Below, piece by piece: positions 16,436-20,998 of a stretch of DNA of 64,000 nucleotides. The notes below the pieces were generated by a model that saw only the letters and a list, made by a program, of their open reading frames with translations, ran no database searches and was not told the origin of the DNA. The position numbers were made by a program, and so were the translations under genes. Source of the stretch: Rhodothermaceae bacterium (lineage in GTDB: Bacteria; Bacteroidota; Rhodothermia; Rhodothermales; Bin80); the NCBI GenBank assembly GCA_009841335.1, contig VXLY01000092.1, positions 1-64,000 on the forward strand, given 5' to 3'. Within the stretch, counting starts at the first letter, position 1. Every line of letters begins with the position of its first letter.

Positions 16436-16438
16436 CCT

Positions 16439-16462
16439 AGCCTGCTGGGTATGGAGCAGGCT
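16439..16462 (+). terminator. Hairpin just after the glycosyltransferase stop
   Basis: AGCCTGCT (16439-16446) and AGCAGGCT (16455-16462) form a perfect 8 bp stem with an 8-base loop, starting 4 bases after the stop codon. There is no T tract behind it, so it would be an incomplete intrinsic terminator or simply an mRNA-end structure. Confidence 0.4.
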
Positions 16463-16777
16463 GACAGACGTTGACAGCTGCCTCACGTGTTGACCCAAGA
16501 TCCTGATCTTGAACCTTTTCGACTTTTGACGCATCATTGACTTCGCCATCTCCATTTGCCCCAGGGGATGGCAACCTAAAATCTAATGACTCACAGACGG
16601 TCTCCTCATGCCGGAGCCGAGATGGCAGCAAATGGCCTCAAGTATTTCCGAGTTTTGCCCCCGCCCGCCAAGTCGCATAGGTAAAACGCCTACGCGCCAC
16701 CGGCACCCCGATTGCCTTGTGCTAAATTGCCCCCGTAACGTACGGCTACTGATACGGGATGACGTGCGTTACTTGGC
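16463..16777. other. Intergenic region, no gene supported
   Basis: Between the rightward glycosyltransferase and the leftward duplicated membrane protein. A 64-codon frame on the minus strand (ending 16437, TTG start) has no recognisable similarity. CCATTTGC at 16552 and GCAAATGG near 16628 form a loose inverted repeat. Nothing else stands out. Confidence 0.35.
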
Positions 16778-17659
16778 CTAACCGCTTACGCCCTCCTCCG
16801 GCCTTACTCGCTTGAAGAATGACCATTTGTAGGGTTTATGCTCTTTTGGCATTGCTACACTTACTCCTGCTGTAAAAAGGCCAAAAAACCTCATATAATC
16901 TCCCCAGGCTCTGTATATATCAGAGCTAGACTCAGAGCTAGACCAGACCAATCCAACTATAAAAAGGCCAAATCCAACCGATATCCCCACGGCCCATGCC
17001 ACGCTAAAGCGCTCGGGCTTCTTCTCCAGAAATAGATACAGGGATACCGCCAAGATTATCGTAACCAGTGCGCCCCAGAGCAAGTTCGATGCACTGTACG
17101 CATCATCAAGGGACCGCCAGTACCCAGAAAAACTTAATAAAGGAAACACCACAGACGGAACCAGGCTTCGAAGTTTCTCATTCATCTTTTCCCGAAAATT
17201 CAACGGCTGAGAGTTTTCCTCTTCAAACTTCGCCAAACACCGATCACCCGCACTTACATCAACGCCCTGCTCCGGCCTTACTCGCTTGAAGAATGACCAT
17301 TTGTAGGGTTTATGCTCTTTTGGCATTGCTACACTTACTCCTGCTGTAAAAAGGCCAAAAAACCTCATATAATCTCCCCAGGCTCTGTATATATCAGAGC
17401 TAGACTCAGAGCTAGACCAGACCAATCCAACTATAAAAAGGCCAAATCCAACCGATATCCCTACGACCCATGCTCTGCTAAAGCGCTCGGGCTTGTTCTC
17501 CAGAAATAGATAAAGGGATACCGTTAAAACTATCGTTACCAGTGCGCCCCAGAGCAAGTTCGATGCACTGTACGCATCATCTAGGGACCGCCAGTACCCT
17601 GAAAAACTTAATAAAGGAATCACCAAAGAAGGAATCAGGTTTCGAAGTTTCTCATTCAT
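16778..17659 (-). CDS. Membrane protein made of two tandem copies of a 158-residue unit
   Basis: A 293-residue protein I cannot assign to a family. It consists of two copies of one module with a period of exactly 158 residues: copies start MNEKLRNLIPS (residue 1) and MNEKLRSLVPS (residue 159). Each copy has three to four predicted membrane helices: NLIPSLVIPLLSF, LLWGALVTIVLTVSLYLFLE, GISVGFGLFIVGLVW and RFFGLFTAGVSVAMP. A conserved soluble tail, EHKPYKWSFFKRVRPE, follows. A charged linker of about 26 residues (VDVSAGDRCLAKFEEEN) joins them. The start codon overlaps the stop of the upstream gene by 8 bases, so translation is probably coupled. The second halves of the two copies are identical at DNA level. 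The family is unknown; an immunity or transport role would be speculation. Confidence 0.75.
   Translation of the reverse strand: MNEKLRNLIPSLVIPLLSFSGYWRSLDDAYSASNLLWGALVTIVLTVSLYLFLENKPERFSRAWVVGISVGFGLFIVGLVWSSSESSSDIYRAWGDYMRFFGLFTAGVSVAMPKEHKPYKWSFFKRVRPEQGVDVSAGDRCLAKFEEENSQPLNFREKMNEKLRSLVPSVVFPLLSFSGYWRSLDDAYSASNLLWGALVTIILAVSLYLFLEKKPERFSVAWAVGISVGFGLFIVGLVWSSSESSSDIYRAWGDYMRFFGLFTAGVSVAMPKEHKPYKWSFFKRVRPEEGVSG
16788..17185. repeat. Tandem duplication, copy next to the 3' end of the gene
   Basis: One of two direct copies offset by 474 bases. By eye, 16796-16987 (192 bases) is identical to 17270-17461. The remaining part, which encodes the N-terminal half of the module, carries scattered differences such as GGATACCGCC versus GGATACCGTT. 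The offset is a multiple of three, so the reading frame was kept. Confidence 0.95.
17262..17659. repeat. Tandem duplication, copy next to the 5' end of the gene
   Basis: Partner of the copy at 16788-17185. It includes the start codon of the gene. Between the copies lie about 76 bases that encode the charged linker. The mixture of an identical block and a diverged block suggests recent duplication or later gene conversion of only the C-terminal half. Confidence 0.95.
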
Positions 17660-18044
17660 TTATTCGCACCAATTCAGGGTCCGACGGTTTTTCCAATTCA
17701 CACCATTCCAGGTACCGTTCACACGCACTATTAGCTCTGTTCATCCTCCTAAAGTACTGCCGTAGATGCGTCTCCAGACAGCCCCCTGAATTCCCAGGCC
17801 GAGCAAAACGTCCATTTAGTTTGACATCCTTAATATAGATAGCCCCAATGCCTTCCGCAATACACTCTGCCGTCTCTATCCCCAAGTCTTCATTAGCCGA
17901 TTCGTCGGCATTATTAAAACCCATCTGGCAAATGTCTTCGCATGAATCATGCGTCTTTCCCACCAATATTGGATTTTTATTGAACACTGATTTTAAGTTC
18001 GCTAGAGTATAGCCATTATTCTGCTGACTCCAGAAATCGTGCAT
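17652..18044 (-). CDS. Unknown protein coupled to the duplicated membrane protein
   Basis: A 130-residue protein I do not recognise. It has seven cysteines, several in pairs of close spacing (SCEDICQ), an EGIGAIYIKDVKLNGRF strand-rich segment, and an acidic/polar C-terminus. There is no signal peptide. Its stop overlaps the ATG of the duplicated membrane protein by 8 bases, which argues that it is a real gene expressed as a pair. The chosen ATG is at 18044, but the same frame continues coding-like upstream (GSGGKGFPESNQFWLID before the Met) to a TGA near 18105-18107 with no ATG, GTG or TTG start. The gene may therefore have lost its 5' part by frameshift. An adjacent frame from about 18250 to 18112 (FHFLDNPFGSFHFGFG) also looks coding-like. 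Confidence 0.5.
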   Translation of the reverse strand: MHDFWSQQNNGYTLANLKSVFNKNPILVGKTHDSCEDICQMGFNNADESANEDLGIETAECIAEGIGAIYIKDVKLNGRFARPGNSGGCLETHLRQYFRRMNRANSACERYLEWCELEKPSDPELVRINE

Positions 18045-18107
18045 ATCGATTAACCAAAACTGGTTGCTCTCGGGAAAGCCTTTTCCGCCGGAACCTATGA
18101 TTCAGCT

Positions 18108-18397
18108 TATAGGGCAAAACCTTCGCGACAGATGTCAAAACACCATCTCGGAGACTTTGCACGCACTTCGCCCGCGAACAATCCAAAGCCAAAGTGAAAC
18201 GACCCGAAAGGATTATCCAGGAAGTGAAAACCACGGAGTGAAGGGTTAGGATAATTCAACAACTCCAAATCCGCATCCTCCTCTTCTGCGGAGAATCAGA
18301 TCTCTACTAACAACATTCGTGGTAGAACGAAATTATCAACTTGGATTCGGGTTAATCCAACAATCCTATCCTATGCTCCGAAAAGCTGATTTTGGGC
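18108..18397. other. Stretch without a supported gene, possible decayed 5' end
   Basis: On the minus strand, 18112-18250 has a protein-like translation (LRGFHFLDNPFGSF then FGLFAGEVRAKSP) in a frame different from the downstream unknown gene, ending in TAA. This may be the broken beginning of that gene. The remaining bases to 18397 show nothing recognisable and are AT-rich around 18300-18360. Confidence 0.35.
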
Positions 18398-18992
18398 TCA
18401 TAAACGTGGCGGCGGGGTTCCCACTTCAACCCATAGCTGGATCTCTACCAAACCAGTTATTCTGATAATTACTGCTTCTTCCGATACTTTGAATCGGTCT
18501 ACCGTATCCTCGGGAACTGACGCGTTCTGCTCCGCCACTAACACTTGTACTTGTGGCGTTGCCGGAGCGCCAGATTGAGTTGCCAGATATACTTCAGTAC
18601 GCCTTCGTTCATCTGACTCCGTCCAGACATGATTCATCGCATGTGCCGAATGTCTCTAATTGTGTAACTCCGACACGGACATCCCAGTCTTTGGCGATGC
18701 CTGTCGCCGTGAAGGACCTGCCCGCTTCCATTGCTGCATTCTGCACACTCTCCTTGGCGGATTCGATCATTTGGGGCAATTCAGGATTCGTGGAAAACGC
18801 ACACTTGGAAGACGCTATGTAAATTAAAGCCAACTCTGCGCCGGCGACTGCTTTGTAGGTCGGCTCATAGTTATGTGGGCCCTCCTGCTGGACAGAGATT
18901 CCTTGAAGTCTGATATACCCGGAGAGTGCCAGTGTAAAGAGTAAGATGAACATCACGGCACAATCAATAACGGCCAGTTGATGCCTCTTCAA
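18398..18992 (-). pseudogene. Propeller-partner protein with one membrane anchor, frameshifted
   Basis: Two overlapping minus-strand frames together read like one protein of just under 200 residues. The first (18609-18992, 127 residues) has an N-terminal membrane helix (CAVMFILLFTLALSGYI). It then has ALIYIASSKCAFSTNPEL, which resembles a thioredoxin-fold strand-turn with one Cys, and then a helix and GIAKDWDVRVGV. It ends abnormally after FGTCDE. The second frame (18398-18637) resumes with NHVWTESDERRR, TPQVQVLVAEQN and ITGLVEIQLWVEVG. The two overlap by 29 bases, so a single-base indel near 18625-18640 is likely. The first frame starts 11 bases after the propeller lipoprotein gene, so the two form an operon. 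Alternatives are two small genes or programmed frameshifting; I favour a recent frameshift or sequencing error. Confidence 0.55.
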
Positions 18993-19003
18993 ATAATCAA
19001 TTT

Positions 19004-20179
19004 TTACACACCTGGACGGATTTCTGGCGGTAACTCGTAGACCAAGACCTGAGGGTAAGGCCAGTTGACCGCCGCATAGAGTCGTCCAGCAACGACTGCA
19101 TACACTGGCGGCAGCTCATTTCCCACGTAACCGCCCGCTCCTGTCTCCAGATGCACCACATATGTGAGTATCTGCGCGTATTCTTTTCGCTCTTGGATAC
19201 TCTCCGGCGTTCGGCGAAGGACCTGAACCAAAACATAGTCAGTTCCATCTATGACCGTCAAATGATGCATCACATCCGATACGCCCTCGTTACCGCTGTA
19301 TGTGAGCATATGCGTACTCGCATCCTCCGTTATGCGCATCGGGTTGAAATCCGACAGACTTGAAGTCCATTTTATTTCCCCCTGCGACGAATATCCGCGC
19401 ATTAAGGGTACGTACCGGAATGTGAACACAACATCGTCCGTACGTTGACTGCAGGTCAAGCTACCCCTAGACAAGTCTTCACGTGCCATGGCCCCACCAA
19501 ACTGATACCCGCTACCAAAGGAATCCAAATATGCCCCGGTAGTATCCAAGGCATGCACGATGCCACCACGCTCTGATCCTGTCGCGTGAATATACATACG
19601 TGAAGCACTCAAACATAGATCAAGTGGGCTGTCCTGTAATGCCAATGTTGTACCCACATTGGCATTCTCACGAGAAAATGCCGTGATTCGTCGGATGCGA
19701 TCTGCAACCAGCAGGCGGTTTGTTCCATCAATCTCCAAAGCCGATGGGGCACGAAATTCGCCTGGTCCTTCACCAGGCGCCCCGTGATGTCGCACAAATT
19801 CGCCGCTTGAATCAAAAACGCGAACCACATAATTTCGGTCATCCAAGACATAAAAATTGCCCTCTGTGTCAGCGGCAAGATCCTCAATCTGTCCGAACAT
19901 CTCATGAACTTCTCCCTCGAGCACGCCGACGACGAGAACCTCTGCAGAACGTGAAAGCCTGTCAATCAACGGCTTCGCCCCTTGGTCAACCGGCCCAGCC
20001 TCGGAAATTACATGCGCTACTTGATCAGCATCAGGGATACTCTCGGCCGTGGGATGCCGGATAACTCCTCGGTCAACAACATCCTCACTTTCGTACGAGT
20101 CCATACAACCGCTGAATACTGCAGCTACAGCTACTAAGATTGCAGTGCTAGAGAATATTGACAGGATAAGACTCTTCAT
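19004..20179 (-). CDS. 6-bladed beta-propeller lipoprotein
   Basis: A 391-residue exported lipoprotein: hydrophobic leader and lipobox FSGC with Cys about residue 25. The body is a 6-bladed NHL-like propeller. The blade signatures are FGQIEDLAADTEGNFYVLDD followed by RNYVVRVFDSSGEFVRHHG, then GEGPGEFRAPSALEIDG and NRLLVADRIRRITAFS. Such proteins are numerous in Rhodothermota and are usually of unknown role, perhaps in binding or sensing. The downstream partner gene starts 11 bases after the stop. The start ATG at 20179 is supported by the signal peptide. Confidence 0.85.
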   Translation of the reverse strand: MKSLILSIFSSTAILVAVAAVFSGCMDSYESEDVVDRGVIRHPTAESIPDADQVAHVISEAGPVDQGAKPLIDRLSRSAEVLVVGVLEGEVHEMFGQIEDLAADTEGNFYVLDDRNYVVRVFDSSGEFVRHHGAPGEGPGEFRAPSALEIDGTNRLLVADRIRRITAFSRENANVGTTLALQDSPLDLCLSASRMYIHATGSERGGIVHALDTTGAYLDSFGSGYQFGGAMAREDLSRGSLTCSQRTDDVVFTFRYVPLMRGYSSQGEIKWTSSLSDFNPMRITEDASTHMLTYSGNEGVSDVMHHLTVIDGTDYVLVQVLRRTPESIQERKEYAQILTYVVHLETGAGGYVGNELPPVYAVVAGRLYAAVNWPYPQVLVYELPPEIRPGV

Positions 20180-20998
20180 GGTGATGGTGTTTTGTTATTG
20201 GAGGACAACCAAAGCAATGCACGCCCCCAAGTCCCTTGCAAAATTCAATAATCCAAAACCGGGGCTCCCCCTCCACTTATGCAAATAAAAAGTGGCATAC
20301 ATTGAATCGTTTCATTTTTTTGTGGATCTACCCCTGCGCGACGACTCGTTCTTCCCTGGGGCCAATTGATTTGGTCGTTTGTACGGGTTGACGGCCACAC
20401 TGAACTCGCCTGGTGAAAACTGTGAAGCCAGCGGACTATCACACCGCTAAAGACAGATCCTCTATCAAGATAGTAACGCTTCAAATTATTATTCCGTCAA
20501 TTATGTTTGTTATATGTTATTTAATGGGAAATACTTGTAATATTGCTGCTAATTCATGCTGGGTTGCATTTTTGGGCCAGAGCATTGAAAAGCCACAATC
20601 ACTGTATCGGCTGGCGCTCGGCTTTTTCATTGGACCTCATTTGTAAATTGCTCAAGCGACCATGCCGGCAAGTTGCGTTCCAGTGCTCATACGAGACGGT
20701 AACAGTCGTATAAATATCTCAAAACAATTTTAGCGAACTCCGTGATTGCTTTAATTGCAGTTTTCGCATAGCCCCAGTACATCTTCGCGGGTCTGCTCCT
20801 AACGAACGTACCGGAGAACCCCCAGTACATGTGACCGTTTTCACTGATGGCGCACAGATTGGCACAACAATCGCTCGGGACATCAAACTTGAGCTTGGAT
20901 GTCCTCAACAAATTTTGGCCAATCAAGCCTCTGGTTACTGCAACAGTCCTTTTCTCCTCTTCTATGGTATGGTGTATGGGACACAATGATTATATCTA
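20180..20998. other. 819-base region with no supported gene
   Basis: It lies between the divergent propeller lipoprotein and methyltransferase genes, so promoters are expected at both ends. The centre (about 20470-20570) is very AT-rich. A 99-codon minus-strand frame (20687-20986) contains a short internal repeat, MYWGFSG and MYWGYAK, and a GLIGQNLLRTSKLKFDVP stretch vaguely like a retropepsin-type aspartyl protease end. The evidence is too weak to call a gene. The region probably holds decayed sequence. Confidence 0.4.

Follow-up and report, generated by a model that had tools for sequence, protein, structure and literature searches.

A fused two-unit membrane protein gene in a Rhodothermales bacterium: probable tandem duplication with a piece of a neighbouring gene and later conversion of one half

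A single open reading frame (ORF) on the minus strand of the 64-kb window (the whole stretch of DNA analysed here) encodes two consecutive copies of a small membrane unit, joined by a remnant of the preceding gene. We are confident that this arrangement goes back to a tandem duplication that carried along the 3′ end of a Cys-rich gene, and that one half of the two copies was later made identical by gene conversion. The more far-reaching explanation, in which the duplicated and converted gene also has an orphan immunity-like role, is the best we can offer for the locus as a whole, and we give it about an even chance. The following features were distinguished:

16778..17659, minus strand: complete ORF of 293 aa, in which two membrane units are fused, with 8 predicted transmembrane (TM) segments (4+4)
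17267..17659, minus strand: unit 1, codons 1-131, TM1-TM4
17186..17266, minus strand: linker of 27 codons (DRCLAKFEEENSQPLNFREK), a remnant of the upstream Cys-rich gene's 3′ end
16778..17185, minus strand: unit 2, 135 codons plus stop, with its own ATG retained at 17183-17185
17270..17461, minus strand: 192-bp identical block in unit 1, TM3-TM4 half
16796..16987, minus strand: 192-bp identical block in unit 2
17652..18044, minus strand: what is left of the Cys-rich partner (130 aa, without the N-terminal lipoprotein part); its end overlaps with the beginning of unit 1
16485..20728, no strand assigned: accessory stretch flanked by genes for a glycosyltransferase and a methyltransferase, missing from genome G008

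Base-by-base comparison confirmed what the sequence-only reading had reported, namely that the repeat units are offset by 474 bp (158 codons) in frame and that 16796-16987 and 17270-17461 are identical over all 192 bp, which correspond to the C-terminal (TM3-TM4) half of each unit. Its description of two 158-codon units fits unit 1, a 131-codon domain followed by the 27-codon linker, but not unit 2 with its 135 codons. The N-terminal halves, described as different, indeed differ at 19 of 198 bases, yet retain 90% identity. Altogether, units 1 and 2 showed 20 differences over 396 aligned bases (~95% overall identity), 19 in the first 198 bases of the coding strand and one in the last 198. In 20,000 trials with 20 differences placed at random, no identity run was as long as 192. 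The two-unit repeat is the only repeat of at least 60 bp in the window, and the DNA of the repeat region occurs once in the genome.

The assignment to membrane proteins also held, as each unit contains four hydrophobic segments (at about residues 7-21, 30-52, 62-82 and 95-112); structure models of low confidence, with a pLDDT of 54 for the single unit and 47 for the fusion, likewise exhibited four helices in each unit. TM1-TM2 form the differing half, TM3-TM4 and the C-terminal tail the identical half. Loops and termini of the unit are basic on one side, with acidic loops on the other. Since the basic loops share their side with the termini, both ends of the fused protein are predicted to be cytoplasmic (N-in/C-in) by the positive-inside rule. 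Two products could be made, the fused protein and, from the internal ATG, unit 2 on its own.

The differences between the units are distributed as expected for gene conversion limited to one half, which had been proposed beforehand. Synonymous changes were found at 0 of 43 sites in the identical half and at about 9 of 48 in the other (Fisher p = 0.003), and all differences taken together were clustered as well (19 vs 1, p = 3e-5). The linker, in turn, has diverged by about 35% from the upstream tail, a value above the 5% by which the units differ (Fisher p about 1e-11) and above the 10% of their unconverted half (p about 3e-6); relative to the synonymous sites of the unconverted half alone, its divergence was marginally higher, with a borderline p of about 0.06. 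The identity of the units therefore probably understates the age of the duplication, and the statistics show that the TM3-TM4 half was homogenised recently, either through gene conversion or through unequal exchange to the same effect. One recent in-frame duplication and no conversion afterwards, the differences in the first half being due to chance or diversifying selection, would agree with the 95% overall identity and the in-frame offset. We considered it improbable, given the strong clustering at all and at synonymous sites, the diverged linker, and a dN/dS of about 0.34 in the N-terminal half, which gives no sign of diversifying selection (the identical half is free of synonymous change). 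The earlier claim of a recent duplication was thus not upheld in its simple form: conversion after an older duplication is the better reading, because the linker has diverged more than the units and none of the 43 synonymous sites has changed.

The origin of the linker was evident from its alignment to the 3′ tail of the window's upstream gene, with a local score of 71 against a maximum of 62 in 500 shuffles, and from its alignment to the tail of the Cys-rich gene in genomes G003 and G004. The linker is 1 nt shorter than the upstream gene's own tail, so that the tail reads into the ATG of unit 2 instead of ending just across it. A tandem duplication thus took in the membrane gene and, along with it, the final ~75 bp of the Cys-rich gene that precedes it. 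No stop separates the first copy from the copied tail, and because this tail is 1 nt short, the second copy's ATG falls in the same frame, which yields the single 293-aa ORF. Conversion later made the TM3-TM4 halves identical, while the TM1-TM2 halves retained older differences. Retention of the tail may have been selected, as it carries the translation start region of the next gene. Alternatively, unequal recombination could have brought in the linker from another paralogous module, and its divergence would then be accounted for as well.

A comparable arrangement was found elsewhere. A contig scan with the whole protein gave no match; a scan with a close alignment returned two named Rhodothermales metagenome-assembled genome (MAG) records (contig C115 of G004 is JAJECE010000057.1, contig C75 of G003 is JAJECV010000107.1). 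Judging by the isolate names (jk18x...) and the MEGAHIT-style contig names, these records would fit a study of Ircinia sponges (PMC9531527), in which Megahit was used (PMC9531527). Both contigs carry two adjacent copies of the same family (53-58% identity) and, as in the window, a relic of the partner's 3′ end lies between them; in G004 this relic of the Cys-rich tail ends with ...CLEHCKPPKAE. In contrast to the window, the copies are separate ORFs (159/160 aa) with a spacer of 142-143 bp and a longer C-terminal tail. The half-pattern is reversed as well, since these paralogues diverge by 16-19% in the C-terminal and 6-9% in the N-terminal half, which may be due to conversion of that other half at an earlier time or to a different constraint. 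By 27 informative sites against 3, the tandem pair is older than the split of the two species. The protein tree placed each pair or quartet in a clade of its own, a pattern compatible with independent duplications or concerted evolution.

These pairs bear on the question whether the repeat is an artefact, in which a short-read assembler merged two alleles or looped through a single repeat. The genome is a draft of 121 contigs, and related MAG contigs are named ‘k141’, a word length shorter than 192 bp. However, flanks and linker both consist of unique sequence, a biological relic like the linker also separates the tandem copies of two other species, and 19 real differences in the first half are not explicable by an assembly loop; an artefact is unlikely on these grounds, and we gave it little weight. 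About as improbable, though mechanically conceivable, is the recombination switch proposed in the sequence-only reading, by which cells would alternate between one-unit and two-unit forms: 192 bp of identity would be ample for homologous recombination, the 474-bp offset is divisible by three and unit 2 terminates as a complete protein, but no alternative alleles were found, every other family member is single-unit and sits at a different locus, and the locus showed no supporting regulatory or inverted-repeat feature.

Single-unit homologues, for which the sequence-only reading had suggested a search, proved numerous. The membrane gene had about 45 matches, some of them broken. All fell in the window's GTDB family within Rhodothermales, of which 11 of 16 genomes carried them, with a patchy spread of 0 to about 10 per genome, and none was found in the other searched genomes of the order. 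Outside the window, every intact relative is an ORF with one unit and no longer than about 180 aa. Contigs C79, C94 and C121 of G002 contain several broken copies with stops and frameshifts, and decay therefore also hits the membrane gene in some species. No relative was found in a scan of viral contigs, so that no link to phages emerged. In Pfam, NCBIfam, PHROGs and the PDB, no family covers the membrane protein. Matches of this protein and of the Cys-rich one in these libraries were weak, mutually inconsistent and typical of hydrophobic segments, and an integrin-alpha match above the cutoff was dismissed as spurious, as it spanned only 9 residues (FFKR motif). The membrane family is undescribed and so far confined to a few related Rhodothermales.

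At many loci, a Cys-rich protein is encoded directly 5′ of the membrane gene or in overlap with it, and its intact versions carry a lipoprotein-like signal (e.g. ...LLIASC...). The window ORF at 17652-18044 matched this partner with E = 2e-4 in G004; its conservation is weak, with 28% over 92 aa in a further comparison. Among 19 loci examined, the partner was open over its full length at four (G3_C129a, G3_C129b, G5_C17 and G4_C102), and G3_C75b became a fifth once its upstream part was included; at the remaining loci it was frameshifted, interrupted, reduced to its tail or absent. The membrane gene was open at nearly all 19 and under purifying selection even beside a broken partner (dN/dS 0.20 for G3C77/G4C46, 0.37-0.56 for others). 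The orthologous partners at L023 and L024 (G003 and G004) are both broken just past the lipoprotein signal, apparently by different changes. Searches of Pfam, NCBIfam, PHROGs and the PDB matched the partner to no toxin family. A likeness of its Cys pattern to that of halocin C8-type bacteriocins was entertained but found no support in any library. Homologues of the membrane gene also occur in G006, G007, G008, G010 and G012, species that lack a detectable partner, which agrees with orphan immunity, but equally with an unrelated role.

The surroundings of the locus vary between genomes. In the closest relative, G008, the neighbouring genes are 93-99% identical and the gap between the glycosyltransferase and methyltransferase genes measures 483 bp, whereas in the window it spans 4.6 kb (16436-20998) and in G007 about 2.5 kb of differing content. 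About 4.2 kb of the window's gap (16485-20728) is missing from G008. This comparison identifies the locus as accessory sequence in a variable site, at which no convincing terminal inverted repeats or tRNA were found. Short stretches, such as 16478-16557, are common to the gaps of G007 and the window. On the minus strand at 18300-18992, the ORF 18609-18992 looks frameshifted and continues in another frame (MNEGVLKYIWQLNLAL...), so that more than one gene is decaying in the accessory stretch. The ORF at 19004-20179 (minus strand) encodes a six-bladed beta-propeller lipoprotein similar to DUF5128, which belongs to a very large family expansion (47 matches in the source genome, 36-38 in G007/G008).

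Because the two genes are adjacent, decay is one-sided, the spread is patchy and multi-copy, and duplication was accompanied by conversion, we tentatively assign an immunity-like role to the membrane protein, at somewhat less than an even chance. It would act at the inner membrane against the Cys-rich lipoprotein, which would be bacteriocin- or effector-like. The loss of the partner beside an intact membrane gene resembles the erosion of toxin-immunity pairs; in the window, as at most loci, the partner would have decayed and the membrane gene been retained as an orphan. The duplicated form would then be a two-headed (‘polyimmunity’-like) protein or simply provide more dosage. A serious rival, which we regard as a real though minority possibility, is that the pair represents lipoprotein and inner-membrane genes of the cell envelope with a non-antagonistic role, the fusion being a covalent pseudo-dimer of a dimerising protein. 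The even number of TM segments per unit, which allows fused copies to share one orientation, and the lipoprotein-like signal of the intact partners suit this idea, as does the fact that no family model in Pfam, NCBIfam or PHROG marks either protein as toxin or immunity. On the other hand, a patchy presence of 0 to about 10 copies per genome and the frequent loss of the partner only would be unusual for housekeeping genes.

The immunity-like reading has parallels in known systems. The paralogues esaG and tipC, immunity genes of the type VII secretion system (T7SS), are likewise small tandem genes behind a partner (Garrett et al. 2022, PMC9484751); they undergo segmental recombination through blocks of high identity, outnumber the toxin genes and have toxin relics nearby (PMC9484751). 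TsaI and TipC are membrane-associated, and tsaI, a membrane immunity gene, shows little recombination (PMC9484751). The likeness is one of arrangement: esaG and tipC are separate Firmicutes genes in up to 15 copies, with tested toxins, whereas the window holds two copies in one Rhodothermales ORF with a putative partner role. Polyimmunity proteins also fuse more than one domain copy in one polypeptide and have a toxin-like partner (Zhang et al. 2012, PMC3482391), and a tandem form is known for SUKH (PMC3482391). Their domains, however, belong to recognised immunity families; the four-TM unit of the window matches no model of such a family, and its immunity function is putative.

Gene conversion between tandem copies is already well known, and the repeat itself is thus unsurprising and mostly the outcome of an ordinary process. 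The relic linker, in turn, preserves a clear record of the route to fusion, i.e., duplication with a piece of the neighbouring gene and then a shift by one base. It is possible, although we think it less likely than not, that the genes form an undescribed antagonism module of Rhodothermales, some of whose hosts are probably sponge-associated. Such a candidate module would consist of a Cys-rich lipoprotein toxin precursor and a four-TM immunity protein with fused two-unit forms, would number as many as about ten per genome, and would leave orphan immunity genes that are duplicated, fused and reshuffled by conversion. If true, the known immunity proteins would gain a membrane-type family, together with its two-unit fusion. 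The main value of the finding lies in the family, a lineage-restricted pair of which one partner erodes repeatedly while the other is kept and duplicated; such one-sided erosion is the footprint expected of a toxin-immunity conflict.
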